Origin: Gammaproteobacteria bacterium
Lineage (GTDB): Bacteria > Gemmatimonadota > Gemmatimonadetes > Longimicrobiales > Gaopeijiaceae
NCBI GenBank assembly: GCA_028819075.1
Contig: JAPPMM010000040.1
Coordinates: 62,001-126,000, forward strand
DNA length: 64,000 nucleotides
Direction: 5' to 3'
How positions within the stretch are numbered: position 1 is the stretch's first letter; every line of letters starts with the position of its first letter. The translations under genes and the position numbers were made by a program. Under the pieces are notes generated by a model. That model was given only the letters and a program-made list of their open reading frames with translations. It did not search any database and was not told the origin of the DNA. Shown here one piece after another: positions 5,180 through 50,286 of this stretch.

Positions 5180-5181
5180 CC

Positions 5182-5685: not shown

Positions 5686-5686
5686 G

Positions 5687-6574: not shown

Positions 6575-6610
6575 GCGGAGGGCCCGGCGCCGACGATGGC
6601 ATCGGCGAGG

Positions 6611-7225: not shown

Positions 7226-7260
7226 CCCGAAGAGCCGGGGGCGGGGCCGGTCCAGCCCGC

Positions 7261-10988: not shown

Positions 10989-12272
10989 CTAGCCCGAAAG
11001 GTTGACGTTGTTGTTCACCTCGATGTCGGGCAGCGGCATGCAACTGTAGGGCTGGAAGCTGTTGCCCTTGTGGTTCACTCCCTGCGGGAACTGGATGTTG
11101 TGGCGGATCATGTCGCTGTGCCAGTGGCCCTCCAGGAAGAAGGTGCGCTTCCGCTCCTCCAGGATGGTCGCCAGCATGTCGTCGACCTCACTCATCTGGA
11201 TGTGGGGAATCCCGTACACGTCGCGCACCCGGTTCAGCGCGTCGAGGGCGGCCTGTCCCATGCGTGCCTCGGCGATGATGAATTGGGCCTCGCGCCATGA
11301 CGCGATGGGAATTGGATCGTCGCGCGACGTGTACTTGAGCTGGTCCCACTGGTCGGTCTCGCCGTCCTGGCCCTTGCGCCCGGTGTTCACCACCGGCACG
11401 CGCGGATCCGGCATGCCGGCGACCTCCAGGTCACGCCAGGCGAAGCCCACCGACAGGTAGTCGGTCTCGGTGCGGTTGTAGGTCGAGTTCTCGCGCCGGA
11501 TCTGGGCGGTCGAGTATTCGGCGTTGCGCACAAACCCCTCGGGCACCTGCTCCGCGTCCGCTGCGGCTTCCGACAGATTCCCCAGGTCGAGGTTCGCGCG
11601 CGCCCGTCCCACCCGCGCCATGTTGACGATGGATGGATCCGAGGCCTGGCTCATCGCGGTGGTGAAGCGCTCCGCGGCGAGCGCCAGGACCTCGCGAGGC
11701 TGCATGAGCGGCCCGTTGTCGAGCGCCATCTCGCAGTAGTTCTCGCCCAGGTGCACCAGGCTGTAGCCCGCGTACGCGTTCAGGGTGCCCAGCACGTTGG
11801 ACTTGTCGGGAACGTCCGCGTCGCTGAACTCGGTGATGCGGCGCACGGCGTCCTCGGCCAGGAAGCGGGCCCGCTGGAAGGGCGTGTAGTAGCCGTAGTT
11901 GGTAGCCGCCCGGGAGGTCGAGCAGGCGCCCGAGGTGGCCCGGATTTCGGTCTCCCCGCGCCAGCCCCAGACGTTGGAACTCAGGAAGAAGTTGGAGGCG
12001 ATGAACTCGCCCGTGAGAAACGCGTTGGTGGGAACCAGGGTGTTGAGGGCGCACTCGAACTCGCCCAGCGCGCTGATCACCATGGTGCCGGCCAGCGCCG
12101 GATCGTCGAGCGCTGCGTCCTCGACCTGCCCGGGGATCTCCACCTCCAGAAGGGATTCACAGGCCACCGTTCCCGCGAGCAGAATGCCGCTCAGGATCGC
12201 CATCGCCCGGGAACCCCTTCCCTGCCGGCGAGCCCGGCGCCGGCGTCCGATGTATTCGCTGTACCGTCTCAT
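10989..12272 (-). CDS. RagB/SusD family outer-membrane lipoprotein
   Basis: A 427-residue protein from ATG 12272 (GAGGTGA upstream). An in-frame ATG at 12326 also has a perfect GGAGGTG site just after the susC stop and would add 18 residues; the shorter form is preferred because it gives a more normal signal peptide (RR-rich, hydrophobic, TVAC38 lipobox). The mature part starts ESLLEVEIPG and shows the family-typical pattern of tetratricopeptide-like helices, MPDPRVPVVNTG, TSRDDPIPIASWREAQFIIAEA, and a C-terminal LEGHWHSDMIRH. SusD-type proteins sit on the cell surface and form a lid over the partner SusC barrel. It follows the SusC stop by 67 bases (13 from the alternative start). Confidence 0.92.
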   Translation of the reverse strand: MRRYSEYIGRRRRARRQGRGSRAMAILSGILLAGTVACESLLEVEIPGQVEDAALDDPALAGTMVISALGEFECALNTLVPTNAFLTGEFIASNFFLSSNVWGWRGETEIRATSGACSTSRAATNYGYYTPFQRARFLAEDAVRRITEFSDADVPDKSNVLGTLNAYAGYSLVHLGENYCEMALDNGPLMQPREVLALAAERFTTAMSQASDPSIVNMARVGRARANLDLGNLSEAAADAEQVPEGFVRNAEYSTAQIRRENSTYNRTETDYLSVGFAWRDLEVAGMPDPRVPVVNTGRKGQDGETDQWDQLKYTSRDDPIPIASWREAQFIIAEARMGQAALDALNRVRDVYGIPHIQMSEVDDMLATILEERKRTFFLEGHWHSDMIRHNIQFPQGVNHKGNSFQPYSCMPLPDIEVNNNVNLSG

Positions 12273-12339: not shown

Positions 12340-15300
12340 TCAGAAGCTCAGGCGCACGTTCGCCGTGAAGCTGGCGAACGGCGGCATGACGGTCTGCTGA
12401 TCCGCGCGGATGTTGCCGGTGCTGCGCAGCTCCGCGTCCCAGGACCATCTCCCTCCGAATCCGCCCGGAGGCATCACCCGGCCGTCGCGCCAGGTGCCCC
12501 ATCCGTGGGCCTTGGTCCAGAGCATGGCCATGTTGCGCGCGGACACGCTGATGACCCCGCGGGAAGCTCCTATGTGGGTGAGCAGGTCCCCGGGAATGCT
12601 GTGGCTCGCCCCGACCTCGCGAAGGCGCAGGAATCCGCCCTCGTGGAAGCCCATGGTGTTGTTCTCGTACTGGCGCCGGGCCTGCACCTCGGGAATGCAG
12701 CGGCAGATGACGGCTTCGGTCACGCCGATGTTGTGGGCGGCGCGCAACTCGGAATTGAAGTTCCAGTGGCCTCCGTTGCCTTCGATGCGCGCGTAGAGGC
12801 GCAGGTTGTTGATGCTGAAGCTGTTGGTGATGCCGACCTGCCAGGTGGGCGTGGACGGGGCCCAGTGCACGTCGGGCGCACCGCCGCAGGCGACCGGAGA
12901 GCCGCCCGAGTCTATGCCGCCGACACCGGTTCCGCCGTCGCACATCGCCGAGGTCACGAAGCCGCCGGCGTCGATCTGCGCCGACACCACCCGCTTGGCG
13001 AAGAAGGCGCCGATGGAGTAGCCCTCGTAGTGGGACTGCTGGCCGCCCGCGGGCACGAAGGACAGCCCGCCGAGGTCCTGGATCTCGTTGTTCATGGTGG
13101 CGAACTGGCCGCTGATGTCCCAGTTGAACACCGGGCCCTCGATGGCTCGGAAGTCGACGCCGACCTCGTTCCCCCAGGCCTTGACCTCGGCCAGGTTCAC
13201 GATCTGGCGCCCGGAGAAGCCCGTGGAGGTGGGGACCGGGCGCTGGACGATGGCATCCTTGATGGTGCGGTCGTAGCGGCTGACGATGAGTTCCAGGCGT
13301 CCGCCCAGCAGGCTCAGATCGAAGCCGTACTCCAGCTCCTCGCCGCGCTCCGGCTTGAGCTGCGGGTTGCCGAAGGAGCCGGGGAGCAGGCCGGGCTGGT
13401 CGCCGAAGCCCACGCCCGGGACGTAGAGGCGCGCCGCGTCGAAGGTGCCGGGCTGCTGTCCGGCGGCGCCCCAGGCCGAACGCAGCCGCAGCTGTTCGAT
13501 CCAGCCCACGTCGAAGAAGTCCTCTTCGGTGACGACCCAGGTGGCGCTGAACTTGGGGTAGACGGCCGCGTCGAAGTCGGCCCCGAAGGCGCTGTTGTCG
13601 TCTCCCCGCACGGCCGCGGTCAGGAAGACGCGGTTGTTCCAGTCCAGCTGCTGCTGGACGTAGGCGCCCAGGGTGATGTTCTCGGTGAAGTTCTCGCCGC
13701 TGTCGCGATCGGCGCCGCCGCTCACGGTCGTGATAGGCACCGCCGGGAACTCCGATCCCTCGGCTTCGATGATGGAAGTCTGGCGCTGGTAGTACTGCAC
13801 GCCCACCGAGCTGGTGAGCCGGAGGCCGGGACGCACATCCAGGAAGGCCGATCCGCTGTAGTCGAGCGTGGTGAAGCGGTTGGCGATGCGCGCAACATCC
13901 TTCAAGCCGAGACCGCGCCTTCCCCAGAAGTGCGAGCGGCCCTCGGGCTGCCGCGGGATGAGCACCCAGTCGACAGCCTCGCCCCGGTCCAGACCGAAGG
14001 AGAGCCGGTGCGTGGTCCAGTCCGCGGGATTGTATCCGAACTCGAGGCTCGTTGTGATGCGGTCGTTGTCGGCCCGTGTGACGTGCTTGGACCACTCCTC
14101 GGGCGGCGCCACCATGAAGCCGCGCTGCGGCGTCTCGATGGTGCTCGGGAATCCCCAGATGATGCCGCTGAAGGGCTCGGCGCCGAACCCGCCCCGGTTC
14201 TGGGCGAGCCGGACCCGGTTCTGCATGTATCCCGTGCTGGTCCGCAGCGAGACATCCTCGGAGAGCACCAGGTCCAGGTTGACCCGGCCGTTGAGGCGGG
14301 TGGCGAAGTCGTAGCCGACGATGCCTTCGTCGTCGTCCCAGGAGAGCGACGTGTAGTAGCGCACGTCCTCGGTGCCTCCCCTCAGCCCCAGGTTGTAGCC
14401 CTGCTGGAGGCCGGTGCGGAAGATGGGCGGGCGTCCCGCGTCGATCTCCTGTTGGACGAGGTTGAAACCCTCGAGCTGCCCGGTGTTGGCGTTTCTGCGC
14501 CACTGGAGGCCGTTGGCGCACGCGAGCGCGTCCAGCGATGCAGGGTTATTGTAGCAGGAGTTCGGATCCCCGCCCGCGCGGCCCGCCGAGTTCTGGAGCC
14601 AGTTCGCGCCGCTGCGCACGCTGATGTCGAACCGGGGGGCGCCCACCGCTCCGCGCTTGGTGATGATCTGGATCACCCCGTTGGAGGCCTCGGTGCCGTA
14701 GAGGGTGGCCGCCGAGGGCCCCTTGATGACCTCGATGCTCTCGATGTCTTCGGGGCTCAGGTCGTTCAGGCGGCTGACCCGGGCCCCGCCGCGCACGCCC
14801 GGTCCGCCGCGCGGGTTGGAGTCCATGCGGATGCCGTCGATGTAGACGATGGGGTCGTTGCCGAGCGACATGCTGGTGGTGCCGCGGATGCGGATCGGCG
14901 AGCCGGTGCCGACCTGGCCGGCCGACGGCAGCATGATCATGCCGGGGGTGCGCTGGGCCAGGAGCGTCTGGACGCTGGTGACCGGCGCGACCTCGAGCAC
15001 GGCGGCCGCGTCCACCGTCTCCACCACGTTGCCGATGGCGCGGCGCTGGGTTCCTCCGGCGGTGCCGGTGACCACGATCTCGTCGAGCGCGAGCGCCTCC
15101 TCGCGCAGCGACACGTTGATCTCGGTGGCCAGGTCGGCGGTGACCGTGGCGGTCACGGTCTGCGTGCCGAAGCCCAGGCTTTCGAAGGCGACCTCGTGGC
15201 TTCCGGCGGGGACGCTCAGGATGTAGCGCCCGTTCTGGTTGGTGGCGGTGCCCAGGTCAAGTCCCTGGATGTAGACCTGGACTCCGGCGAGGGGTTGGAG

Positions 15301-15432
15301 GGTTTCGGCGTTGACTACCTGGCCGACGAGATTGCCCGTTTGGGCAGCGGCGGGCGTGCCGGAGGCAAGGACCACAGCCAAGGCTCCGGCCAGGCAGGCA
15401 AGCGCCCGTGCGAACGGACGAAACTTACCCAT
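12340..15432 (-). CDS. SusC/RagA family TonB-linked outer-membrane receptor
   Basis: A 1030-residue receptor from ATG 15432 (AGGAG six bases upstream). Signal peptide to AAAQ (about residue 31), then a carboxypeptidase-regulatory-like domain (GNLVGQVVNAETLQPLAGV, about 33-115), a short link EEALALDEIVVTGTAGGTQRR (TonB-box region), the plug domain (GTGSPIRIRGTTSMS, IVYIDGIRMD, IEVIKGPSAATLYGTEASNG, to about residue 265) and a long beta-barrel ending NVRLSF with C-terminal Phe. It imports a TonB-dependent substrate together with SusD at 10989. A 7-bp inverted repeat in the leader (15481-15487 with 15495-15501) lies about 50 bases before the start; its role is unknown. Confidence 0.94.
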   Translation of the reverse strand: MGKFRPFARALACLAGALAVVLASGTPAAAQTGNLVGQVVNAETLQPLAGVQVYIQGLDLGTATNQNGRYILSVPAGSHEVAFESLGFGTQTVTATVTADLATEINVSLREEALALDEIVVTGTAGGTQRRAIGNVVETVDAAAVLEVAPVTSVQTLLAQRTPGMIMLPSAGQVGTGSPIRIRGTTSMSLGNDPIVYIDGIRMDSNPRGGPGVRGGARVSRLNDLSPEDIESIEVIKGPSAATLYGTEASNGVIQIITKRGAVGAPRFDISVRSGANWLQNSAGRAGGDPNSCYNNPASLDALACANGLQWRRNANTGQLEGFNLVQQEIDAGRPPIFRTGLQQGYNLGLRGGTEDVRYYTSLSWDDDEGIVGYDFATRLNGRVNLDLVLSEDVSLRTSTGYMQNRVRLAQNRGGFGAEPFSGIIWGFPSTIETPQRGFMVAPPEEWSKHVTRADNDRITTSLEFGYNPADWTTHRLSFGLDRGEAVDWVLIPRQPEGRSHFWGRRGLGLKDVARIANRFTTLDYSGSAFLDVRPGLRLTSSVGVQYYQRQTSIIEAEGSEFPAVPITTVSGGADRDSGENFTENITLGAYVQQQLDWNNRVFLTAAVRGDDNSAFGADFDAAVYPKFSATWVVTEEDFFDVGWIEQLRLRSAWGAAGQQPGTFDAARLYVPGVGFGDQPGLLPGSFGNPQLKPERGEELEYGFDLSLLGGRLELIVSRYDRTIKDAIVQRPVPTSTGFSGRQIVNLAEVKAWGNEVGVDFRAIEGPVFNWDISGQFATMNNEIQDLGGLSFVPAGGQQSHYEGYSIGAFFAKRVVSAQIDAGGFVTSAMCDGGTGVGGIDSGGSPVACGGAPDVHWAPSTPTWQVGITNSFSINNLRLYARIEGNGGHWNFNSELRAAHNIGVTEAVICRCIPEVQARRQYENNTMGFHEGGFLRLREVGASHSIPGDLLTHIGASRGVISVSARNMAMLWTKAHGWGTWRDGRVMPPGGFGGRWSWDAELRSTGNIRADQQTVMPPFASFTANVRLSF

Positions 15433-15720
15433 GCGTACTCCTCTGGAGGCGCGTACTGCCGAGTGAGCCGCCAGGAGGTAGACCCGTCGGAGAAACGGGT
15501 CGCGTGGAAGAGCTGCCTGGCGGGGGTCCAAACTGTCCGAGAACGCCTCCACGGTGATTCTACGACTCGTGTCAAGCGGCGGCCAGTCGGCGGGTGGCCG
15601 GCGCGGGGCACCGGGGGGGCCGCTCTACGGATTGGACACGCCCTCCCGGCGGCGTCAGGTTCAGACAGGCGGGGTGGTGGAGGGCCGGCCCGCCGTCCAT
15701 GCCGATCCGTGAGGTGGCCG

Positions 15721-16428
15721 GTGGCTCCAGCAGTTGGAAGCGAGAGCGGTCGGCGGTGGTGGGCGGTGGCGCTGGCGGCGCTCGTCGGGGCAGGTTGCGC
15801 GCCCGGGGACGAGCGCTCCGCCCTCTCCTCCCGCGAGATCCTGCTCGATCCCACCCTCCCGGCGTGGAGCGAGGCCGCTCCCGACACCTTCCTGGCTCGC
15901 TTCGAGACCAGCGCGGGTGACTTCGCCATCGAGGTGGTGCGAGCCTGGGCGCCCGTGGGGGCCGACCGATTCTACAACCTGGTGCGCCACGGCTACTACG
16001 ACGACGCGCGCTTCCACCGCACCGTACCGGACTTCATCGTGCAGTGGGGACTGGCGGGCGATCCCGAGGTCACGGCCGCCTGGATCGGCGAGACCATCCG
16101 GGACGACGACGCGGTGTTGGCCAGCAACGTGCGCGGCACCATAGCGTTCGCCTTCACGGAGCCGCACACCCGCGCCACACAGGTGTACATCAACCTGGTG
16201 GACAACAGCCGCCTGGACGCGCAGGGCTTCCCGCCCTTCGGCCGGGTGGTGGAGGGGATGGAGGTTGTGGACCGCATCTACCCGGGGTACGGCGAGAGCT
16301 CGGGGGGCGGGCTGCGGCGCGGCGACCAGAGCGCGATCGTGGCGGGTGGCAACGACTATCTCGACCGCGAGTTCCCGATGCTCACCCGCCTCCTGAGGGC
16401 CACGGTGGAGCGCGGCTCGAAGGAGTGA
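15721..16428 (+). CDS. peptidyl-prolyl cis-trans isomerase, cyclophilin type, lipoprotein
   Basis: A 235-residue protein. The start is GTG 15721, preceded by GAGGTGGCC; it yields an RR-containing n-region and a hydrophobic stretch ending GAGC26, a likely lipobox. The cyclophilin domain (about 55-230) has GDFAIEVVRAWAPVGADRFYNLV, DDARFHRTVPDFIVQWG and FGRVVEGMEVVDRI; the catalytic Arg region (FHR) and Gln (VQWG) are present, although the usual VxMAxxxP-type segment is replaced by GTIAFAFTE. It would catalyse prolyl isomerisation of exported proteins in the periplasm. It is divergent from the susC gene at 15432 and two bases from the next start. Confidence 0.88.
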   Translation: MAPAVGSESGRRWWAVALAALVGAGCAPGDERSALSSREILLDPTLPAWSEAAPDTFLARFETSAGDFAIEVVRAWAPVGADRFYNLVRHGYYDDARFHRTVPDFIVQWGLAGDPEVTAAWIGETIRDDDAVLASNVRGTIAFAFTEPHTRATQVYINLVDNSRLDAQGFPPFGRVVEGMEVVDRIYPGYGESSGGGLRRGDQSAIVAGGNDYLDREFPMLTRLLRATVERGSKE

Positions 16429-16430
16429 CC

Positions 16431-16862
16431 ATGGAATCCATACGGGTGAAGGACCGCCCGACCGGCGCATGGCGGTGGCTGCAAATGGTGCTGCCGCTCG
16501 CGCTGGCAGTCGTCTCAGCCTGCGTCGTGGGTGCCCCCGGACCCGCGCGCAGCACGTCACAGGGAGACATCACGCGTCCCGAACTGGAACAGATTCTGAG
16601 CGAGAGCGCGTACCAGGCGGTCGAGCAGCTGCGGCCATCGTGGCTCTTCTACCGGCGCACTCCCACCATCTCGAACCCCAACCCGGAGCCGGCCGTGTAC
16701 GTCGACCAGGCGAAGCTGCTCGCGCTGGACGATCTGCGCAGCATTCCCGTGCAGGACGTCGAGCAGATCCGCTTCCTCTCCTCCCGGGACGCGACCACGA
16801 TCTACGGGACCGGCCACATGTGGGGCGCGATCGTGGTGACCACCCGACGGCCCGGGGGATAG
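16431..16862 (+). CDS. plug-only (TonB-receptor plug-like) lipoprotein, copy C
   Basis: A 143-residue lipoprotein; AAGGAGTGACC precedes the ATG and overlaps the upstream stop. The signal ends VVSAC31. The mature part begins with a GDITRPELEQ motif, followed by a helix (YQAVEQLRPSWL), then PAVYVDQ, VEQIRFLSSRDATTIYGTGHMWGAIVVTTRR. The last segment aligns with the distal plug of the SusC receptors in this window (VYVDG, IERIEVIKGPSAATLYGTEASNG, IITKR) but no barrel follows. Two homologs are at 19006 and 19447. This copy has lost the VDG glycine (VDQ). Function is unknown; possibilities are a receptor-plug partner, a decoy, or an unrelated use of the secretin/plug fold. Confidence 0.8.
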   Translation: MESIRVKDRPTGAWRWLQMVLPLALAVVSACVVGAPGPARSTSQGDITRPELEQILSESAYQAVEQLRPSWLFYRRTPTISNPNPEPAVYVDQAKLLALDDLRSIPVQDVEQIRFLSSRDATTIYGTGHMWGAIVVTTRRPGG

Positions 16863-17014
16863 ACCTGACACAAGCGTCGGCTGACGAGCGGACCTGGCGG
16901 CCGACCCGATCGGCGAGCATCGAAAAGCCTGACGCGGGACCGATGCCGGTCGATCGAATTCGACGTGCCGGACACTTGACCTTACCCCTCTGCCTGTGGA
17001 TCTTCAGAGCAAGT

Positions 17015-17034
17015 TGAGAATGAGTCTCATTTTA
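17015..17034. promoter_or_regulatory. Fur-box-like operator
   Basis: AATGAG-T-CTCATT is an exact 6-1-6 palindrome centred at 17025, embedded in TGAGAATGAGTCTCATTTTA, very close to the Fur/iron-box consensus. It is 67 bases upstream of the ATG at 17102. A weak upstream promoter can be proposed (TTGACC at 16976-16981, 17-base spacer, GATCTT at 16999-17004), which would place the operator just downstream of the -10 element. Confidence 0.65.
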
Positions 17035-17101
17035 TTCAGCTCGCGCTCGGCGCACTTGTGACGCCACACGCAACGAGACTCACTACAGGAAACGGAGGAA
17101 C

Positions 17102-17812
17102 ATGTCCCGCAGTAACACCGCAATGCTCGTCCTTGCCGTGATTCCGCTCCTGTCGGCCGGCTGTGCCGGGGATAGCGATGCGGCGGAGTCCGAGCCCGCC
17201 GCCGCCGTGGACGTCGAGGCCATGGGCGGTATGAACGCCGCCGATGCAATGGCCGCCCTCTCCAACCCCAACCTCGCCACTGAAGACGAGCTCACCGCGG
17301 TCCCGGGGATCACGGCGGAGGCCGCCGCGGCGGTTGCCGGCGGACGGCCCTACCTGCGGGCGGCGGATCTGCACGCGGTGCTGGCGGGGGCGATCGGAGA
17401 GGAGGCGGCGGTAGGGGCCTACCGCGCGCTCTGGCTGCCGATCAACCTCAACGACGTGACCAACGACGAGATCCTGCTGATTCCGGGTGTTGGGGATCGG
17501 ATGGCCCACGAGTTCGAAGAGTACCGTCCATACGTGGACATGGGCGAGTTCCGCATGGAGATCGGGAAGTACGTGGACGAGAACGAAGTTGAGCGGCTCG
17601 CCCGGTATGTGTACGTCCCTATCGACCTGAACACGGCCCCCCGCGAAGAGATCATGGCGGTTCCCGGGATGAGCGAGCGCATGGCCCACGAGTTCGAGGA
17701 GTACCGCCCGTACACCGACCTGGACCAGTTCCGGCGCGAGATCGGAAAGTACGTGGACGAAAACGAAGTCGCGCGGTTCGAGCGCTACGTGACGCTGAAC
17801 CAGGGCGGATAA
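17102..17812 (+). CDS. helix-hairpin-helix repeat lipoprotein
   Basis: A 236-residue lipoprotein with a strong GGAGGAAC-type site before ATG 17102. The signal ends LLSAGC21. After an acidic linker come three helix-hairpin-helix units: a degenerate one (LATEDELTAVPGITAEAA, about 58-75) and two near-identical ones (INLNDVTNDEILLIPGVGDRMAHEF and IDLNTAPREEIMAVPGMSERMAHEF, starting about 117 and 177), each followed by EYRPY, EIGKYVDENEV. The repeat period is 60 residues, also clear in DNA (180 bp). ComEA-type HhH domains bind DNA, but the strongly acidic character here argues for another ligand or protein contact. It lies behind a Fur-like box and is followed by a PepSY membrane protein, so an envelope iron-acquisition role is inferred. 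Confidence 0.82.
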   Translation: MSRSNTAMLVLAVIPLLSAGCAGDSDAAESEPAAAVDVEAMGGMNAADAMAALSNPNLATEDELTAVPGITAEAAAAVAGGRPYLRAADLHAVLAGAIGEEAAVGAYRALWLPINLNDVTNDEILLIPGVGDRMAHEFEEYRPYVDMGEFRMEIGKYVDENEVERLARYVYVPIDLNTAPREEIMAVPGMSERMAHEFEEYRPYTDLDQFRREIGKYVDENEVARFERYVTLNQGG

Positions 17813-17860
17813 GGGGCGCAGCCGGGCGGGGCGCCGGCTTCGTCGACCCGGCGGCGTCAA

Positions 17861-19009
17861 GTGCGGATGATCCGCGCAGTCATCTTCTGGCTGCATCTTT
17901 CTGTAGCCGCGGCCGCCGGGGTGGTTATCCTGATGTTGGCAGCGACGGGGGTGGTGCTGTCGCTGCAGGAGACGGCGACGGGGCTTGCGGAGCGGCGGTA
18001 CTTCGTGGCCGCGCCCGAGACTGTGGAACGGCTGCCTCCTGAGGAACTCGCAGGGGCGGCCGGGTTCACGACGACTTCGCTGAGTTACCGTTCGGATCCG
18101 CGCGCGCCGGTGCGCGTCTACGAGGGGCGGGACCGGTACGCCCGCGTCAATCCCTACACGGGGCAGGTGTTGGCAACGGGACCGGGCGGACTCGAGCGGT
18201 TCTTCGAAGGCGTTCACAACTGGCACCGCTGGTTCAACGTCTCCGGAGGCTCGGTGCGTCGTGCCCGGGCGGTGACGGGAGCGGTCAACGTGGCCTTCCT
18301 CTTTCTGCTGCTTACCGGACCGATCCTGTGGATCCCGCGGCCCGTCACGCGGCGGTCGCTCGCCAACGCGATCCTCCTCCGTCCCGGGGCGAGAGGCGCC
18401 GGGCGCGACCTCAACTGGCACCAGGTGGTCGGGATCTGGTCCGTCCTGCCGCTGGCCGCGATCGCCGCAACCGGGGTCGCCACATCGTATCCGGCTGCGG
18501 GAGATCGGGTCTACCCGATGGTGGGAAACGCTATGTCCGCCGGGTCATGGGCGGTCGCATCAGCGTCCGGAGGGATGGGGTTCGACGAGGCGGCGATTCC
18601 GGAGGACTCGGCTCGCGTGGCGGAGCCGGACCTGAGGGCCGTGCTCGCAACGGCCGAGGGATGGGCGCCGGAGTGGCGGACCATGATTCTGAACATGCCG
18701 CGCCCGGCGGACAGCGAGGTCCGCGTCGAGGTGCAGGCGGGCCGCGCGGGCCAGCCTCACAGGACCGGCTTTCTCACCGTGGACGCCGCCTCCGGCACGG
18801 CGCGCGCATGGGAGTCCTTCGCCGACGATTCGCCCGCACGGCGCGCGCAGCAGTTCCTTCGATACGCGCATACGGGGGAGTACTGGGGGCTGGGGGGCCA
18901 GCTGTTGGCAGGACTCTACTCGTTGGCGGCCGCGGTGATGGTGTGGACCGGCCTTTCGCTGGCGGTACGCCGGCTGCGACGCTTCGTCAGCTCCCGGCGG
19001 ACGAACTAG
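17861..19009 (+). CDS. PepSY-associated transmembrane protein (PiuB/siderophore-reductase type)
   Basis: A 382-residue inner-membrane protein; start GTG 17861, with an in-frame ATG two codons later at 17867 equally possible. Transmembrane segments are visible at about 5-30 (LHLSVAAAAGVVILMLAATGVVLSL), 138-158, 187-207 and 350-370. The PepSY-TM pattern includes RYARVNPYTGQVLA, the His-bearing FEGVHNWHRWFNVSG, LNWHQVVGIWSVLPLAAIAATG, and FLRYAHTGEYWG. The conserved His residues probably bind haem. Family members are Fur-regulated in many bacteria and act in ferric-siderophore reduction or iron release. It follows the HhH lipoprotein by 48 bases and overlaps the stop of the convergent gene at 19006 by four bases. 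Confidence 0.85.
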   Translation: MRMIRAVIFWLHLSVAAAAGVVILMLAATGVVLSLQETATGLAERRYFVAAPETVERLPPEELAGAAGFTTTSLSYRSDPRAPVRVYEGRDRYARVNPYTGQVLATGPGGLERFFEGVHNWHRWFNVSGGSVRRARAVTGAVNVAFLFLLLTGPILWIPRPVTRRSLANAILLRPGARGAGRDLNWHQVVGIWSVLPLAAIAATGVATSYPAAGDRVYPMVGNAMSAGSWAVASASGGMGFDEAAIPEDSARVAEPDLRAVLATAEGWAPEWRTMILNMPRPADSEVRVEVQAGRAGQPHRTGFLTVDAASGTARAWESFADDSPARRAQQFLRYAHTGEYWGLGGQLLAGLYSLAAAVMVWTGLSLAVRRLRRFVSSRRTN

Positions 19010-19443
19010 TCTGGAGGTGCGCGCCGCGTAGTGATCATGATGGCCCCCGCCGTGTGATTGGTGCCGAAGCGCGTCGTGGCGTCGGTGGGGGAGAGCAGCG
19101 AAATCCGCTCGATGTGATCGTCGCTGATGCTGCGCAACTCCCGGAATTCCATACGGACCCCGTTCAGGTAGACCGCGGGCCGATTGTCCAGGTTGTATGC
19201 GGTCTGGGCGCCCCGGCGCCGCAGCCAGGTGCGCCTGAGCCGCTCGATGGCGGTGTAGGCGTTGCCGAAGGCGTCCCTGTCCAGCTCCTCTCTCGTGATG
19301 TCGCCGAAGCCGCCCCCTGTGGACGGCGTGGCTCCTTCGGGACCTCCCGCTAAACAGCCCGCCAGGCAAAGCGTTGCCGCGAGCGTCAGCGTCCCGATCC
19401 AGCGAGCCGCGACTGGCGCAGGGCTTCGTCGATCGACGGGCAT
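19006..19443 (-). CDS. plug-only (TonB-receptor plug-like) lipoprotein, copy A
   Basis: A 145-residue lipoprotein with signal ending CLAGC30. Mature motifs: GDITREELD, AYTAIERLRRTWLRRRG, PAVYLNGVRM, HIERISLLSPTDATTRFGTNHTAGAIMITTRR. The second half aligns with the distal plug of SusC receptors, but there is no barrel. GGAGTAG upstream of ATG 19443 contains the stop codon of copy B, so the two are translationally coupled with a three-base gap. It is the last gene of the operon SusC (21290), SusD (19932), copy B, copy A. Compared with copy B it has Asn for Asp in the VDG-type turn (LNG). Confidence 0.82.
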   Translation of the reverse strand: MPVDRRSPAPVAARWIGTLTLAATLCLAGCLAGGPEGATPSTGGGFGDITREELDRDAFGNAYTAIERLRRTWLRRRGAQTAYNLDNRPAVYLNGVRMEFRELRSISDDHIERISLLSPTDATTRFGTNHTAGAIMITTRRAPPD

Positions 19444-19446
19444 TGA

Positions 19447-19857
19447 CTACTCCGGAGGACCTCTGCGGGTGACGATCACGATCGCCCCCGAGGCGTGACC
19501 GGTGCCGAACCGGGTGGTGGCATCGGTGGGGGAGAGCAGCGAGATCCGCTCGATGTATTCGGCGCTGATGCCGAAGAGTTCCTCGATGCGCCCGACGCGC
19601 ACCCCGTCCATGTAGACCAAAGGCCGGTTGTCCGGGTTGTTCGGGGTGCGGGCGCCCCGGCGCCGCAGCCAGCTGCGGCGGAGCCGCTCGATGGCGTGGT
19701 GGGCGCTGGTGTACACCTCCAGGTTCAGCTCCTCCCTGGTGATGTCGCCGGTTCCGCGGACGGGTGGGGGGCCGTCTCCCCCGGCACCCGAACCGCCGGC
19801 GCAAGCGCCGAGGCAGAGGAGGCCTGAAAGCGCCAGGGTCCACGCCCACAGGGACAT
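19447..19857 (-). CDS. plug-only (TonB-receptor plug-like) lipoprotein, copy B
   Basis: A 136-residue lipoprotein with a short signal ending LGAC19. It has GDITREELN, AIERLRRSWLRRRG, PLVYMDGVRV, YIERISLLSPTDATTRFGTGHASGAIVIVTRR. It is clearly a paralog of copies A and C; the shared DITREEL and LRR-x-WLRRRG helix distinguish the group from ordinary plugs. The ATG at 19857 is preceded by GGGAGAGGT, which itself lies directly behind an 11-bp hairpin (19870-19909) separating it from susD. Being inside a susCD operon, it is likely delivered to the same outer-membrane complex; this is an inference. Confidence 0.82.
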   Translation of the reverse strand: MSLWAWTLALSGLLCLGACAGGSGAGGDGPPPVRGTGDITREELNLEVYTSAHHAIERLRRSWLRRRGARTPNNPDNRPLVYMDGVRVGRIEELFGISAEYIERISLLSPTDATTRFGTGHASGAIVIVTRRGPPE

Positions 19858-19931: not shown

Positions 19932-21269
19932 TCAGCCGCTCGTGTTGGGGTTCAACTCGAGTTCGGTTTCGTCGATGGGAAGGCACGTCGTCGGCCCGTA
20001 GGCCACTCCCTTGTGGTTGAAGTTCTGGCCGCGCGGGAACCACAGCCCGTAGCGCAGCTTGTCGGCGTGGTGCCGTCCTTCGAGGAACATCTCGCGGCGC
20101 CGCTCCTCGACGATGACGCCCATGTCCACGGATGAAGCGTGGGGCAGGCCGTGCCGGTCGCGCAACGCATTGATACGGCTCAGCGCGGAGGCCGCGTCAC
20201 CGGACATGACCTCGACCTCGGCCAGGATCAGCTGCGCCTCGGCCCAATCGCCGAGCGGAATATCGTACCCCTGGTCACGGTACTTGGTCTGGACCCAGTG
20301 CGGGGTGACGCCGTCCTGACCCACCTGACCGGTGTTTACCACCGGGACGCGGGGATCGGGCATGCCGTCGTCCACCGTCTGGCTCCCGTCCGCGGCGATG
20401 GTCAGGTTGCGGAAGCCGGGCGCCACCTCGACTCCGTCCACCATCACGGGAGGAGTGATGGTGCCGTACTTGTTCTCGTTGAGCATGTGGTAGACCTGGT
20501 TCCACCGCTTGCGCACCGAGTTGTCGCGGGTGACCCAGGCGATGAAGTTCGGGTCCGTGACCTGGGCCGCATCCGCCGCCGCTCCGGACATGTTGCCCTG
20601 CGAAAGGCGGTTGCGGGCCCGGGCAAGGTGCGCCAGCTGGCGCGCGCTCGAGGTCACTGCGGTGATGTCGAAGTCGCCGCCCATGTGGCCGATGGCGGTG
20701 CCGAGCCACTCCTCGCCGCCGGCCAGCAGCTGGGACGGGGTCATGAGCGGTCCTACGTCCACGGTGTTCTCGCACCAGTGCTCGCCGAACACGGTGTAGA
20801 CGAGCCCGGCGTAGAGTGCCGCGGTCGCGAGCAGGTTGTCCTGGTCCGGAACGGCCTCCTCGAACCCGCTGATGGTGTTGTACGCCTGCTCCGCCTGGAA
20901 GCGGGCCTTCTGGAAGGAGGTTGCGAACGCTGCGTTGGTATTGCTCTGGCCGCAGTTGCCGCTGGTGGAGGTGATGCGGTACTCGGACCAGGCTCGCGTG
21001 AACCAGCCGGTCGACTCCCAGTAGGCGTCCTCGAGGCCTCCGATGGAGACCGAGAAGTCCGAGTACGAGCACTCGAAGTCGGCGATCGCGGACACGACCA
21101 TGGTATTGGCCATGTCGGGAATGAGGAGCCCGTCCTCGGTCAGGTTGCCCGGCAGCTCCACCTCGAGCAGGCTGTCGCATGCTCCGGCCGCCGTCGCCGC
21201 CAGAACGAGCGCGGCGATCTTCGTGAATCGTCCGCGGGCGGGTCGCTTTCCATTTCTGATTGTCTTCAT
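19932..21269 (-). CDS. RagB/SusD family outer-membrane lipoprotein
   Basis: A 445-residue lipoprotein. ATG 21269 is chosen because GGGAGA precedes it; an ATG at 21290 overlapping the susC stop (TGATG) is possible and would add seven residues. Signal ends AGAC32 followed by DSLLEVELPG, like the SusD at 10989. Further family landmarks are FQKARFQAEQAYNTI, MPDPRVPVVNTG, GDWAEAQLILAEVEV, and RREMFLEGRHHADKLRYGLWFP. It is the surface lid partner of the SusC at 21290 and, given the duplication, may also serve the orphan SusC at 24729. A fragment of a second copy of this gene remains at 24631-24704. Confidence 0.92.
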   Translation of the reverse strand: MKTIRNGKRPARGRFTKIAALVLAATAAGACDSLLEVELPGNLTEDGLLIPDMANTMVVSAIADFECSYSDFSVSIGGLEDAYWESTGWFTRAWSEYRITSTSGNCGQSNTNAAFATSFQKARFQAEQAYNTISGFEEAVPDQDNLLATAALYAGLVYTVFGEHWCENTVDVGPLMTPSQLLAGGEEWLGTAIGHMGGDFDITAVTSSARQLAHLARARNRLSQGNMSGAAADAAQVTDPNFIAWVTRDNSVRKRWNQVYHMLNENKYGTITPPVMVDGVEVAPGFRNLTIAADGSQTVDDGMPDPRVPVVNTGQVGQDGVTPHWVQTKYRDQGYDIPLGDWAEAQLILAEVEVMSGDAASALSRINALRDRHGLPHASSVDMGVIVEERRREMFLEGRHHADKLRYGLWFPRGQNFNHKGVAYGPTTCLPIDETELELNPNTSG

Positions 21270-21289: not shown

Positions 21290-24268
21290 TCAGAACGTGA
21301 CCCGCATGGTCAGGTTGAACGACGCGGTGGGCGGGACATTCGAGTTGGAGCCCGTGTTGGTGTCCGAGGTGCGCCGAGCCTCCGGATCGTGGATCGGTTC
21401 ACCCCAGATGTCCGGCTGGGATACCCAGAGCATCGCGAGGTTGCGCGCGCCGAGGCTCACGGACGCCCGCGAGGCTCCCGAGCGCTCCACCAGCGACTGG
21501 GGCAGCCGGTAGTTGGCGCTGATCTCGCGGAGGCGGGCGAAGCCTCCGTTGTAGACCATGCCGCTCCCGAAGTTCTCGTCCGCGCGCGCCAGGAAGAGCG
21601 GGTTGGTGCGCTCGTTGGCCGCGAGCGAGGTCTGGAAGTGGATGTGCTTGCCGGCAACGTCCGACGAGGTGGCGTAGCCGCCGATGCGGTGCTCGACCAG
21701 GGCATGGAGCCTGAGGTTGTTGAAGAAGGTGAAGGTCAGGTTGTAGCCCATCTCCCACGGCATCTGGAGCGGTCCGTAGAAGACTTCCATCCGGCTGTTG
21801 CACGGAGCCGGCGACCCGCCCTGCTCCCAGCCGTTGATTCCGGTGCCGCTGTCGCACATGATCGACGACTTGATGAGCCGCCCGGTTGAGGGATCGATCT
21901 CGGCGCTCACCGCCAGTTCGTCGAAGATGGCCGGGAAGGGGAAGCCTTCGCGCAGCGTGTTGGTCGGAGGCAGGTCGCCGACGTCCTCCACGCGGTTCCG
22001 GTTGTGCGACAGGCTCGCGCCCAGGTCCACGGCGAGGGCGCCGCCGTCGAAGACCCGTCCGTTGAGGTTGACCTCCCAGCCCCAGTTCTTCAGGTGCCCC
22101 AGATTCACGGACTGGGAGCCGGGGAAGCCGCGGCTGGGAGCCACGGGCAGGGAGACCAGCGCGTCCCGGATGTCCTGCTGGTAGTAGGTCACCTGGGCCA
22201 GGAGGCGGTCGTCGAACAGACCGGCGTCGAACCCGGTCTCGATCTCGGTGCTGACCTCGGGGCCCAACTCCGGGTTGCCCACTTCGTCGGGGGTGACCGC
22301 GGCCTGCGAGGCCGGGCCCACCGCCGGCTCATAGAGCCGCACGGCAGCGAACACGTCGGGCTGCTGCCCGGCCTTGCCCCACGCCGTCCTCAGCCTCAGC
22401 GAGTTCACCCAGCCGACATCGAAGAAGTCCTCTTCACTGAGGACCCAGGTGCCGGAGAGCTTCGGATAGATGGCCGCGTCGAAGTCGGCGCCGAAGGCGG
22501 AGTTGTCGTCGCCGCGGATGGCGCCGGTGACGAAGATGCGGTCCTGATAGCCGATCTCCTGCTGCACGTAGGCGCCCATCGTCTTGTTCTGCACGAAGTC
22601 CTCGGTGGACGTCGTGCTGGCCGCGCCTGCGAGCGAGGTGATGGCGGGAGCCGGGAAGGTCTTCCCGGTGCTGATCACGGTCTCGAGCTGCTTGGAGTAG
22701 TACTGGGCGCCAACGGAACTCCGCAGGGTCAAGTCGCTCAGGTTGACCGTTCCCGTGGCGGCGTAGTCGAAGGTGATGTAGCGGGTGTACGGGCGCTCGA
22801 CGACGACATCCCCCAGCGAGAGGCCGCCGAAGTCGTGCTGTGCTCCGGTCGGATGGCGCGGGAAGAGCCTGCGGTTCTCCTCATGGGCCTGGTCCAGCCC
22901 GATCACGGCCCTGTGGGTCAGCCAGTCGAACGGCGTGTGGTTGAGCGTGAGGCTGCCGATGAAGCGCGAGTTGTCGCGGGTCGCCTCGACTTCCTCAATG
23001 GACTCGGGGCGCGCGCGCAGGAATCCGCGCAGCCGGGTGTCGACGCCCTCGGGAGTCGACCACTGCGCCTGTTCCCAGACGCCCCACGAGGTCCGCTGCT
23101 GCATGAAGCTGGTGGTGCCGTTCACGTAGCCGGTGCTCATGTCGATCTGGAGCGACTCGTGCGGCACCACGGAGACGTTCGCGCGCGTATTGAACACCTT
23201 GTTCCAGTTGTAGTGGACGATGCCGGTCTGGTCGTCCCAGTCGGTGGCCAGGTAATAGCGCACCCGCTCGGTGCCGCCCCTCATGCTGAGCGCATAGCCC
23301 TGGGAGTGGCCCGTGGTGAAGAACTGGCGTCCGGCATCCCTTTCCTGGTCCCAGATGTTGAAGGAGATGATGTTGCCGGCGCTGTCCTTGCCGTAGGCGA
23401 AGTTGACCTGGTCGCGTGCGTTGGGGAGCCAGGTGGCGCCCTGCTTGATGGTCAGGTCGAACTGGGGCGCGCCCTCGACGCCGCGCTTGGTGATGATGTT
23501 GATGACGCCGTTGGAGGCCTCGGTGCCGTAAAGGGTCGCGGCCGAAGGGCCCTTGATGACCTCGATGCGCTCGATGTCCTCGGGGTTGATGTCGTCGAGC
23601 TTGCTCACCTGGCGGCCGTCGCGGAGGCTCGGCCCCGCCTGGGTCTCGTTGTCGACCCGGATGCCGTCTACGTAGATGAGCGGGTTGTTGCCGACGTTCA
23701 GGCTGGTGTAGCCGCGGATGCGGATGGGCGACCCGGTGCCGACGTTCCCCGACACTCGCTTGAAGCCCACGCCGGCCTCACGTCCCTGCAGGAGGTCCTG
23801 CATGGTGTTGATGGGGGCGACTTCCGCCACGTCGGCGGCCTCCACGCGGGCCATCGCGTTGCCGAGCGCGCGCTGCCGGGTGCCGCCCGCCGTGCCTGTC
23901 ACCACCACCTCATCGAGCGCGAGCGCTTCCGCCGTGAGGTTGATCTCGATCTGGCTGGTCTGGCCGCCGGTCACGTCGATCTGCACGGTGGCGGTGCGGA
24001 ACCCGATCCGCGTCGCCCGCAACTGATGCGTGCCGGCCGGAACGTTGAGGAGCAGGAACTGACCGTTGGCCTGGGTCAGCCCCCCGATCTCCAGGGTCGG
24101 GATGTCCACCTGGACGACGGACATCGGTTGCAGGGTGCGGCCGTCGACCACCGTTCCGGTGACGGTGCCGGTTCCCTGCGCACCTGCCCCGACCGCTGTG
24201 GCCAGCAGGAGCGCAAGGAGCGCGACGGCTGCGCTTGCGGGTTGGAATACGACGATACGAGAGCCCAT
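21290..24268 (-). CDS. SusC/RagA family TonB-linked receptor, duplicate copy 1
   Basis: A 992-residue receptor from ATG 24268 (GGAGG seven bases upstream). Order: signal to AGAQ (about 32), carboxypeptidase-like domain (TGTVVDGRTLQPMSVVQVDI), TonB-box region EALALDEVVVTGTAGGTRQRA, plug (GTGSPIRIRGYTSLN, LIYVDGIRVD, IERIEVIKGPSAATLYGTEASNG), barrel ending FNLTMRVTF. It is the same length as the copy at 24729 and very similar throughout; 21381-22191 is base-for-base identical to 24820-25630 as far as I can read. It heads the operon with SusD and plug-only genes B and A. The leader contains an 8-bp inverted repeat (24299-24306 with 24326-24333). Confidence 0.94.
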   Translation of the reverse strand: MGSRIVVFQPASAAVALLALLLATAVGAGAQGTGTVTGTVVDGRTLQPMSVVQVDIPTLEIGGLTQANGQFLLLNVPAGTHQLRATRIGFRTATVQIDVTGGQTSQIEINLTAEALALDEVVVTGTAGGTRQRALGNAMARVEAADVAEVAPINTMQDLLQGREAGVGFKRVSGNVGTGSPIRIRGYTSLNVGNNPLIYVDGIRVDNETQAGPSLRDGRQVSKLDDINPEDIERIEVIKGPSAATLYGTEASNGVINIITKRGVEGAPQFDLTIKQGATWLPNARDQVNFAYGKDSAGNIISFNIWDQERDAGRQFFTTGHSQGYALSMRGGTERVRYYLATDWDDQTGIVHYNWNKVFNTRANVSVVPHESLQIDMSTGYVNGTTSFMQQRTSWGVWEQAQWSTPEGVDTRLRGFLRARPESIEEVEATRDNSRFIGSLTLNHTPFDWLTHRAVIGLDQAHEENRRLFPRHPTGAQHDFGGLSLGDVVVERPYTRYITFDYAATGTVNLSDLTLRSSVGAQYYSKQLETVISTGKTFPAPAITSLAGAASTTSTEDFVQNKTMGAYVQQEIGYQDRIFVTGAIRGDDNSAFGADFDAAIYPKLSGTWVLSEEDFFDVGWVNSLRLRTAWGKAGQQPDVFAAVRLYEPAVGPASQAAVTPDEVGNPELGPEVSTEIETGFDAGLFDDRLLAQVTYYQQDIRDALVSLPVAPSRGFPGSQSVNLGHLKNWGWEVNLNGRVFDGGALAVDLGASLSHNRNRVEDVGDLPPTNTLREGFPFPAIFDELAVSAEIDPSTGRLIKSSIMCDSGTGINGWEQGGSPAPCNSRMEVFYGPLQMPWEMGYNLTFTFFNNLRLHALVEHRIGGYATSSDVAGKHIHFQTSLAANERTNPLFLARADENFGSGMVYNGGFARLREISANYRLPQSLVERSGASRASVSLGARNLAMLWVSQPDIWGEPIHDPEARRTSDTNTGSNSNVPPTASFNLTMRVTF
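21381..22191. repeat. identical tract shared with 24820-25630
   Basis: 811 bases inside susC copy 1 (barrel C-terminal part) match copy 2 with no mismatch that I could find, at a constant offset of 3439. Flanking sequence differs noticeably: for example mismatches at 21377, 21380 and 22192, and many between 22192 and 22420. The abrupt edges suggest gene conversion or selection on this part. Confidence 0.75.
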
Positions 24269-24480
24269 GAGCGGTCCTCCGGACAGAGGTGGAACAGGCA
24301 CCTCCGGCGGCGGCTCGAACACCCTCGGAGGTGATCGATTGGGCCATTAGTTGACACCCGGGACCGCGGTTTTGCTGGCGGTCGAGGTCATGCCAGGCCG
24401 GTCCGCGAACGACGGATGAGCCCGTATCGAGAGGGTCGACCCTCGCCCGGCCACGTCAGTTGGCGACCGGCGCGAACGAG

Positions 24481-24620
24481 TCGCTACCAGCGCGCCCGCG
24501 TGCGGATGTCTTCGGCGACCTGCCCGGCGAACGCCTTCCGGCCCATGACCACCACGTTGTGGCGCTGGTTGTCAGTGCCCACGTAGTCGAGGCCGATACG
24601 CTGCGGCATCAGCAAGTCTG
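24481..24620 (-). pseudogene. truncated thrS remnant (3' fragment with internal deletion)
   Basis: 24484-24553 aligns with the end of thrS (28016-28085) at offset 3532, including its stop codon and the RTRARW C-terminus. 24545-24617 then aligns with thrS 28404-28476 at offset 3859. The 327-base difference is an exact in-frame-length deletion between two copies of the 9-mer ATGACCACC (28077-28085 and 28404-28412 in intact thrS). The fragment has no start and is non-functional. It marks the left edge of the duplication junction. The flanking 24269-24480 is weakly similar to the susC2-thrS spacer and holds no gene. Confidence 0.85.
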
Positions 24621-24728
24621 CTGGGGCCGGGTGACGCCGTCCTGTCCCACCTGACCCGTGTTCTCAACGGGGACGCGGGGATCGGGCATGCCATCGTCCA
24701 CCGTGAGCGGCTGTTTCTCCCTTGCACA
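24621..24728 (-). pseudogene. susD remnant upstream of susC copy 2
   Basis: 24631-24704 aligns without gaps with 20305-20378 of intact susD (the DGMPDPRVPVVNT/GQDGVTPHW region). 24710-24728 matches the susC-susD junction around 21271-21289 (CTTTCTCCCTTGCACA-type). About 890 bases of susD between these points are missing. The susC copy at 24729 therefore has no intact SusD of its own. The piece is directly fused to the thrS fragment at about 24618-24630, which is the tandem duplication breakpoint. Confidence 0.83.
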
Positions 24729-27707
24729 TCAGAACGTGACCCGCATGGTCAGGTTGAACGACGCCGTGGGCGGCACATTCGAGTTGGAGCCGGTGCTGGT
24801 GTCCGCCGTGCGCCGCGCTTCCGGATCGTGGATCGGTTCACCCCAGATGTCCGGCTGGGATACCCAGAGCATCGCGAGGTTGCGCGCGCCGAGGCTCACG
24901 GACGCCCGCGAGGCTCCCGAGCGCTCCACCAGCGACTGGGGCAGCCGGTAGTTGGCGCTGATCTCGCGGAGGCGGGCGAAGCCTCCGTTGTAGACCATGC
25001 CGCTCCCGAAGTTCTCGTCCGCGCGCGCCAGGAAGAGCGGGTTGGTGCGCTCGTTGGCCGCGAGCGAGGTCTGGAAGTGGATGTGCTTGCCGGCAACGTC
25101 CGACGAGGTGGCGTAGCCGCCGATGCGGTGCTCGACCAGGGCATGGAGCCTGAGGTTGTTGAAGAAGGTGAAGGTCAGGTTGTAGCCCATCTCCCACGGC
25201 ATCTGGAGCGGTCCGTAGAAGACTTCCATCCGGCTGTTGCACGGAGCCGGCGACCCGCCCTGCTCCCAGCCGTTGATTCCGGTGCCGCTGTCGCACATGA
25301 TCGACGACTTGATGAGCCGCCCGGTTGAGGGATCGATCTCGGCGCTCACCGCCAGTTCGTCGAAGATGGCCGGGAAGGGGAAGCCTTCGCGCAGCGTGTT
25401 GGTCGGAGGCAGGTCGCCGACGTCCTCCACGCGGTTCCGGTTGTGCGACAGGCTCGCGCCCAGGTCCACGGCGAGGGCGCCGCCGTCGAAGACCCGTCCG
25501 TTGAGGTTGACCTCCCAGCCCCAGTTCTTCAGGTGCCCCAGATTCACGGACTGGGAGCCGGGGAAGCCGCGGCTGGGAGCCACGGGCAGGGAGACCAGCG
25601 CGTCCCGGATGTCCTGCTGGTAGTAGGTCATCTGGGCCAGCAGCCAGTCGTCGAAGAGCGCGGCGTCGAACCCGGTCTCGATCTCCGTGCTGACCTCGGG
25701 GCCCAGCTCCGGGTTGCCTACTTCTTCGGGGGTGACCGCGGCCTGGGAGGCAGGGCCCACCGCGGGTTCGTAGAGCCGCACCGCAGCAAACACATCGGGC
25801 TGCTGGCCGGCCTTGCCCCAGGCGGTGCGCAGCCTCAGCGAACTCACCCAGCCGACATCGAAGAAGTCCTCTTCACTTAGAACCCAGGTGCCGGAGAGCT
25901 TCGGATAGACGGCGGCGTCGAAGTCGGCTCCGAAGGCGGAGTTGTCATCGCCGCGGATGGCGCCGGTGATGAAGATGCGGTCCCGGTAGCCGATCTCCTG
26001 CTGCACGTAGGCGCCCAACGTCTTGTTCTGCACGAAGTCCTCAGTGGAGGTCGTGCTGGCCGCTCCTGCGAGCGAGGTGATGGCGGGAGCCGGGAAGGTC
26101 TTCCCGGTGCTGATCACAGTCTCGAACTGCTTGGAGTAGTACTGGGCGCCAACGGAGCTCCGCAGGGTCAAGTCGGTCAGGTTGACCGTTCCCGTGGCGG
26201 CGTAGTCGAAGGTGATGTAGCGGGTGTACGGGCGCTCGACGACGACGTCTCCGAGCGAGAGGCCGCCGAAGTCGTGCTGTGCTCCGGTCGGATGGCGGGG
26301 GAAAAGCGTACGGTTCTCCTCGTGGGCCTGGTCGAGCCCTACTACGGCTCGGTGGGTCAGCCAGTCGAACGGCGTGTGGTTGAGTGTGAGGCTGCCGATG
26401 AAGCGGGAGTTGTCGCGGATCGCCTCGACTTCCTCGATCGACTCCGGACGCGCGCGCAGGAATCCGCGCAGCCGGGTGTCGGCGCCTTCGGGGGTGGACC
26501 ACTGCGCCTGCTCCCAGACGCCCCACGAAGTTTTTTGCTGCATGAAGCTGGTGGTGCCGTTCACGTAGCCGGTGCTCATGTCGATCTGGAGCGACTCGTG
26601 CGGCACCACGGAGACGTTCGCGCGCGTATTGAACACCTTGTTCCAGTTGTAGCGGACGATGCCGGTCTGGTCGTCCCAGTCGGTGGCCAGGTAGTAGCGC
26701 ACCCGTTCGGTGCCGCCCCTCATGCTGAGCGCGTAGCCCTGAGAGTGGCCCGTGGTGAAGAACTGCCGCCCGGCATCTCGCTCCTGGTCCCAGATGTTGA
26801 AGGAGATGATGTTGCCCGCGGTGTCCTTTCCGTAGGCGACGCCCACCTGGTCGCGGGCATTGGGAAGCCAAGTGGCGCCCTGCTTGATGGTCAGGTCGAA
26901 CTGGGGCGCGCCTTCGACGCCGCGCTTGGTAATGATGTTGATAACGCCGTTGGAGGCCTCGGTGCCGTAGAGAGTCGCGGCTGACGGACCCTTGATGACC
27001 TCGATGCGCTCGATGTCCTCGGGGTTGATGTCGTCGAGCTTGCTCACCTGGCGGCCGTCGCGGAGGTTGGGGCCCGCCTGCGTCTCGTTGTCGACCCGGA
27101 TGCCGTCCACGTAGATGAGCGGGTTGTTTCCGACGTTCAGGCTGGAGTAGCCGCGGATGCGGATGGGCGATCCGGTGCCGACGTTCCCCGACACTCGCTT
27201 GAAGCCCACGCCCGCTTCACGTCCCTGCAGGAGGTCCTGCATGGTATTGATGGGCGCGACTTCTGCCACGTCGGCGGCCGCTACGCGGGCCATCGCGTTG
27301 CCGAGTGCGCGCTGCCGGGTGCCGCCGGCCGTGCCGGTGACGACCACCTCGTCCAGCGCGAGCGCTTCCGCCGTGAGGTTGATTTCGATCCGGGTGGTCT
27401 GGCCGGCGGTCACGTCGATCTGAACGGTGGCGGTGCGGAACCCGATTCGCGTCGCCCGCAACTGATGCGTGCCTGCCGGAACGTTGAGGAGCAGGAACTG
27501 ACCGTTGGCCTGGGTCAGCCCCCCGATCTCCTGGGTTGGGATGTCCACCTGGACGACCGACATCGGTTGCAGGGTGCGGCCGTCCACCACCGTTCCGGTG
27601 ACCGTGCCGGTTCCCTGCGCGCCGACCCTTGCCGTCGCGGCCGCGATAGTCGCGACAAGCGCAATGGTCGCGCGCCCGGGTCTGATTCCAACGAAGCGAG
27701 CGCGCAT
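24729..27707 (-). CDS. SusC/RagA family TonB-linked receptor, duplicate copy 2
   Basis: A 992-residue receptor from ATG 27707 (AGGAGG seven bases upstream). Domain order is as in copy 1: signal ending VGAQ, TGTVVDGRTLQPMSVVQVDI domain, EALALDEVVVTGTAGGTRQRA, plug with LIYVDGIRVD and IEVIKGPSAATLYG, barrel ending FNLTMRVTF. Differences from copy 1 are scattered through the signal, plug edge and middle barrel (for example AAADVAEVAP versus EAADVAEVAP, and the DWLLAQMTYY region). Only a fragment of susD lies downstream, so this receptor either shares the SusD from copy 1, works without one, or is on the way to loss. The frame is fully open, so it is called functional. Confidence 0.93.
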   Translation of the reverse strand: MRARFVGIRPGRATIALVATIAAATARVGAQGTGTVTGTVVDGRTLQPMSVVQVDIPTQEIGGLTQANGQFLLLNVPAGTHQLRATRIGFRTATVQIDVTAGQTTRIEINLTAEALALDEVVVTGTAGGTRQRALGNAMARVAAADVAEVAPINTMQDLLQGREAGVGFKRVSGNVGTGSPIRIRGYSSLNVGNNPLIYVDGIRVDNETQAGPNLRDGRQVSKLDDINPEDIERIEVIKGPSAATLYGTEASNGVINIITKRGVEGAPQFDLTIKQGATWLPNARDQVGVAYGKDTAGNIISFNIWDQERDAGRQFFTTGHSQGYALSMRGGTERVRYYLATDWDDQTGIVRYNWNKVFNTRANVSVVPHESLQIDMSTGYVNGTTSFMQQKTSWGVWEQAQWSTPEGADTRLRGFLRARPESIEEVEAIRDNSRFIGSLTLNHTPFDWLTHRAVVGLDQAHEENRTLFPRHPTGAQHDFGGLSLGDVVVERPYTRYITFDYAATGTVNLTDLTLRSSVGAQYYSKQFETVISTGKTFPAPAITSLAGAASTTSTEDFVQNKTLGAYVQQEIGYRDRIFITGAIRGDDNSAFGADFDAAVYPKLSGTWVLSEEDFFDVGWVSSLRLRTAWGKAGQQPDVFAAVRLYEPAVGPASQAAVTPEEVGNPELGPEVSTEIETGFDAALFDDWLLAQMTYYQQDIRDALVSLPVAPSRGFPGSQSVNLGHLKNWGWEVNLNGRVFDGGALAVDLGASLSHNRNRVEDVGDLPPTNTLREGFPFPAIFDELAVSAEIDPSTGRLIKSSIMCDSGTGINGWEQGGSPAPCNSRMEVFYGPLQMPWEMGYNLTFTFFNNLRLHALVEHRIGGYATSSDVAGKHIHFQTSLAANERTNPLFLARADENFGSGMVYNGGFARLREISANYRLPQSLVERSGASRASVSLGARNLAMLWVSQPDIWGEPIHDPEARRTADTSTGSNSNVPPTASFNLTMRVTF
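24820..25630. repeat. identical tract shared with 21381-22191
   Basis: Second member of the 811-base identical pair inside the two susC copies; mismatches resume at 24816/24819 on one side and 25631 on the other. See the tract at 21381. Confidence 0.75.
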
Positions 27708-50232: not shown

Positions 50233-50286
50233 CTATTCCTCCCTTGTTTCCATATTGAGCATTGAGCTTCGCGCGAGACGCGGCCA

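Follow-up and report, generated by a model that had tools for sequence, protein, structure and literature searches.

Results

Three small lipoprotein genes near a susCD operon

What would a TonB-dependent receptor plug do if it were produced as a lipoprotein of its own, outside the barrel of a transporter? The usual view of the plug is that of a component housed within the barrel. An earlier reading of the window (the whole stretch of 64,000 nucleotides that was analyzed, part of contig C40 from a genome of 4.4 Mb) had proposed three small lipoproteins at 16431, 19006, and 19447 with a plug-like end, and we found an open reading frame with a lipobox at each of these positions. In databases, the window is closest to MAGs from the BD2-11 clade and from other Gemmatimonadota; some of these MAGs bear the label Gammaproteobacteria. 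The relevant features, with genes from a custom caller and lipoboxes from a pattern match, are as follows.

12340-15432 (-): SusC of the other susCD pair (its SusD at 10989-12203), divergent from the PPIase-A cluster
15667-16428 (+): cyclophilin-type PPIase, probable lipoprotein (Pfam Pro_isomerase, 87.5 bits; provisional start codon)
16431-16862 (+): A, predicted plug-fold lipoprotein in the PPIase operon, 143 aa (lipobox SAC, followed by VVGAPG)
17102-17812 (+): helix-hairpin-helix lipoprotein with repeated motifs, neighbor of A
17861-19009 (+): PepSY_TM protein, neighbor of A
19006-19443 (-): B, predicted plug-fold lipoprotein, second behind susD, 145 aa (lipobox LAGC, followed by LAGGPE)
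19447-19857 (-): C, predicted plug-fold lipoprotein directly downstream of susD, 136 aa (lipobox LGAC, followed by AGGSGA)
19932-21269 (-): SusD upstream of C and B (Pfam SusD_RagB, 40.5 bits), with acidic residues after the lipid Cys
21290-24268 (-): SusC upstream of that SusD, with a complete plug of its own

The order susC, susD, C, B runs along one strand with gaps of 75 bp between susD and C and 3 bp between C and B, so the placement of two of the three proteins in a susCD operon holds; A lies outside that operon. The gene for A starts 2 bp past the end of the PPIase gene and is followed by those for the helix-hairpin-helix lipoprotein and the PepSY_TM protein, a gene order that is conserved, these two neighbors included, in the related loci L033 to L040. 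Orthologs of C sit behind susD in loci L032 to L035.

B and C are 58% identical (E 5e-37) and A and C are 42% identical (E 2e-29), values by which we reject chance similarity and regard the three proteins as homologous. B is an apparent tandem paralog of C. The common motifs described earlier thus reflect a true family resemblance, but not in every detail, as A deviates from them (LRPSWLFYRR, VYVDQ). Against close relatives, dN/dS is approximately 0.14 to 0.18 for C and 0.07 to 0.14 for A, reaching 0.36 against the most distant A. These comparisons indicate that A, B, and C are real proteins on which purifying selection is acting.

A complete but compact plug fold

Plug was the only Pfam domain match worth naming for the three proteins, and it lies at the margin of detection: relative to the cut-off of 23.9 bits, C scores just over (24.2) and B under (22.1), the covered part being profile positions 46 to 107, and A has no match, although it matches TIGR04056/TIGR04057 weakly. 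Across the family, 17 of 42 members match Plug at E 0.01. As had been proposed, the proteins lack a barrel, a carboxypeptidase-like domain, and a TonB box: at 136 to 145 aa they yield no Pfam match to a barrel domain (that of SusC/RagA having 22 beta-strands) or to a carboxypeptidase-like N-terminal domain, and nothing in the mature proteins corresponds to the DE(I/V)VVTG segment of SusC. SusE/SusF and DUF1735 domains were likewise without a Pfam match in A, B, and C.

More sensitive methods extend the similarity over the whole plug. HHalign of the family profile against SusC plugs gives a probability of 98.3, with columns 30 to 132 aligned on 33 to 160, and a 42-member family profile run against PDB sequences matches BtuB 24-134 and Cir 12-135, the entire plug in both. 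An AF2 model of C, built from 12 family sequences and zero SusC sequences, is itself a plug of moderate confidence (domain pLDDT mostly 60 to 86, mean 68, pTM 0.59). Its best PDB match is the plug of the SusC BT1763 over model residues 34 to 136 (97 residues, rmsd 3.1), with a VIA Z score of 8.2 that is near the level reachable by common arrangements; nearly all the PDB matches listed are plugs of TonB-dependent receptors.

The original prediction had confined the likeness to the distal plug. The plug likeness itself stands and the restriction does not: most of the plug signal is carried by the C-terminal half of the family profile, and the N-terminal half alone, while only weakly plug-like, is collinear with the plug and scores 17.8 versus 14.4 for the best of 20 column shuffles. 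A half-plug is therefore rejected on the whole-plug matches and on the behavior of the N-terminal half. Alignments and model together indicate that the mature part of A, B, and C is one complete but compact TonB-receptor plug fold without two of its loops.

Compared with SusC/RagA plugs (PF07715; e.g., BT1763), the family shares the fold of the whole domain and the segments with the IRG-type Arg, VYVDG, IExI, and YG...GxIxIxTR. Of the two conserved basic residues of the plug, the IRG Arg is retained in 86% of members, whereas the K/R of VIKGP, present in 99% of SusCs, is mostly S, D, or N. Missing relative to SusC plugs are 14 columns before IRG and the loop after VDGIR, two stretches that would correspond to substrate-facing apices of the FhuA plug. 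Unlike SusC/RagA, the family consists of stand-alone, lipid-anchored proteins, and it carries two strongly conserved signatures of its own, LRPxWLxxRG and DATxRFGTGH, both absent from SusC.

A large family across the Gemmatimonadota

A six-sequence profile detected members in 78 of 121 genomes, and the 42-sequence profile detected them in 158 of 200 Gemmatimonadota genomes, spanning 74 of 91 genera with 1 to 14 copies each, often in tandem, with the proviso that near-threshold matches may be receptor plugs. Pfam and NCBIfam hold no model dedicated to the family, only generic plug or SusC models that match with marginal scores, and searches of the open literature for barrel-less or stand-alone plugs returned nothing relevant. 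The expectation that the proteins form a distinct family is borne out: the family is large, real, and uncharacterized, and undescribed as far as the open literature searched goes. A tblastn search of plasmids returned a single SusC and nothing else.

Other plug proteins without a barrel occur in the same genomes, also in several copies per genome, namely, a full-plug lipoprotein (L018) and proteins joining a carboxypeptidase-like domain to a plug (L007, L014, L016, and L023). They differ from the family in having either a full-length plug with the usual loops or a carboxypeptidase-like domain with hydrophobic segments, and in having no LRPxWL signature. In L007, L014, and L016 (own genome), the combination of carboxypeptidase-like domain, plug, and hydrophobic C terminus, again with no barrel, recurs in several copies.

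A few family members are fused into larger proteins, most being single-domain. At L093:5930-9274 (+), a plug-fold lipoprotein is fused to a GH115 alpha-glucuronidase in a xylan-type locus with GH10 and GH43, and each of the proteins at L126:6002-7912 (-) and L124:5533-7545 (-) combines a carboxypeptidase-like domain and a middle region with two plug-fold copies in tandem.

A firm but partial association with SusCD

By a distance rule applied to 110 loci, 20 of 112 members share the strand of susD and follow it at a distance of one or two genes. A stricter count of members directly behind susD, which skips only other family members and leaves out members at locus ends, gives 17 of 111 for a first sample and, for a second one drawn from other genomes, 11 of 50. 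Among other genes of the same loci, 26 of 1,211 (2%) are directly behind susD (Fisher p 1e-13, p values here being nominal because the genomes and sequences are related), and the expected frequency is approximately 0.2% (414 SusDs in 227 Mb, taking 900 genes per Mb). The first sample was picked by its scores with a profile that had B and C among its seeds and so favors linked members; the profile behind the second sample likewise includes linked members.

On the family tree, the label of susD linkage needs 8 changes, at least 3 of which are forced by supported branches; co-encoding with susCD is thus found in independent lineages, in a minority of the family. Members that do not adjoin susCD make up about three quarters and are instead found in the PPIase operon, beside DUF3179, in tandem arrays, and at a recurrent spot close to genes for a ferredoxin and a peptidase-like protein. 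Association with susCD elsewhere, predicted from the window, is therefore upheld as an enrichment directly behind susD and fails as a general rule: the link is statistically firm but partial, an exclusive link is rejected, and the whole family need not have SusC as its partner, because most members do not adjoin it. Every partner SusC whose gene is complete in its locus retains a full plug of its own.

Predicted membrane side

In Bacteroidetes, the signal that exports lipoproteins to the cell surface consists of acidic residues that immediately follow the lipid Cys (PMC5080379), a rule that may not hold for Gemmatimonadota. None of 105 family members has D or E at positions +2 to +4 after this Cys, versus 45 of 46 SusDs of the same loci, and the contrast is seen in every susD-plug lipoprotein pair in which both lipoboxes were recognized. 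With the export signal absent from members and present in the SusDs, the family lipoproteins most likely stay on the periplasmic face of the outer membrane, if the Bacteroidetes rule holds here. The pairing of A with a PPIase fits this side.

Discussion

A phylum-wide, multicopy family of lipid-anchored, barrel-less plugs that is under selection and found repeatedly behind susCD indicates that the plug fold has a second use. The reading that we tentatively favor, at a little under an even chance, is that the protein is anchored at the periplasmic face of the outer membrane and, recruited to some SusCDs, uses its plug fold as an adaptor or for docking, not as a channel stopper, with SusC as the putative partner. 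In susCD operons, the lipoprotein would bind beneath SusC, near the exit of SusC's own plug and Ton box, and might help SusC, for instance by holding or sensing its plug once displaced or by serving as a link from SusC to TonB or to other factors in the periplasm. Elsewhere, the same module would tether other periplasmic proteins, the GH115 glucuronidase fusion being one case and the PPIase operon perhaps another. A further reading, in which the protein is a third, periplasm-facing subunit of certain SusCD transporters whose free plug fold engages the plug or the emptied barrel of SusC and controls gating or energization, we consider unlikely.

The detachable plug of the original prediction, here taken to be a lipoprotein that would move into the SusC barrel from the periplasmic side and close it once the resident plug has been displaced, would be served by a complete plug fold, a predicted periplasmic side, and the widely retained IRG Arg, and an empty barrel can exist, because the SusC of BT1762-63 was seen in closed states without its plug in vitro (PMC7782687). 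Substitution for a missing plug is nevertheless rejected: since all complete partner SusCs have their own, the family protein does not replace one, and the family has lost the second conserved basic residue (K/R of VIKGP) and two loops. With most members also lacking a SusCD neighbor, a stand-in plug is decidedly improbable. A subunit or regulator that acts on SusC is possible. Improbable, too, is a surface accessory lipoprotein in the position of SusE/F, binding substrate or enzymes outside the cell as in Bacteroidetes utilisomes, to which the gene position directly behind susD and the GH115 fusion in a xylan-type locus would be suited; its difficulties are the missing acidic export residues, a plug fold in place of the SusE/F beta-sandwich, and the deletion of the plug loops that presumably face the substrate.

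Somewhat more room must be given to a general tether or spacer, in which the plug fold is simply a stable membrane-proximal domain that acts with no particular partner and the linkage to susCD stems from the family's origin in a duplicated SusC plug or from hitchhiking within the operon. This explanation is possible, if rather unlikely: the many members away from susCD and the fusions to unrelated domains speak for it, as does the analogous DUF1735, interpreted as a membrane-bound spacer (PMC11216935), but most members are single-domain and have nothing to space, the arrangement behind susD recurs independently, and LRPxWL and DATxRFGTGH are strongly conserved. That the genes are decaying remnants of SusC genes has virtually no chance of being correct; plug homology and the tandem susC duplications of the region might suggest it, and it is refuted by the proteins' own signal peptides and lipoboxes, dN/dS values mostly of 0.07 to 0.18, a family signature absent from SusC, and presence across 74 genera.

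Returning to the adaptor reading, the closest positional parallels are the SusE/SusF and DUF1735 lipoproteins of Bacteroidota, whose genes also lie behind susD and of which DUF1735 is often fused to enzymes (PMC11216935). These are immunoglobulin-like beta-sandwiches, whereas the family has a modeled plug fold and no acidic export signal. For the PPIase beside A, a comparison is offered by BamM of the Flavobacterium BAM complex, a lipoprotein of PPI fold at the outer membrane (PMC12611786); a plug is absent from BamM, however, the type of the PPIase at 15667-16428 is cyclophilin, and we found no link to BAM here. If the lipoproteins do act under SusC, they would give a much-studied uptake system one more component. 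They would then also be relevant to the unsettled question of how SusC retains its plug, lets it go, and connects it to TonB (PMC7782687). Small proteins annotated as "plug domain" should not all be written off as receptor fragments.

Rearranged SusCD genes

Some SusCD genes have themselves been rearranged or interrupted. A second SusC copy at window positions 24268-27850 (-) is 94% identical in DNA to that at 21290-24268, with an identical 132-bp flank, and the susD between the two is reduced to a 79-bp remnant; judged from this DNA comparison, the copy is a tandem susCD duplication minus one susD. The SusC gene at 50200-53346 (-) has an in-frame stop within the barrel (FLAYAGLS-stop-GRKDVIYDRG), downstream of which the barrel is still open in an unchanged frame, and the gene is followed by an intact SusD. 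In L035, at approximately 4200 to 8000, two opposite-strand genes split SusD into pieces of 375 aa and 63 aa, and the plug lipoprotein behind it is intact.
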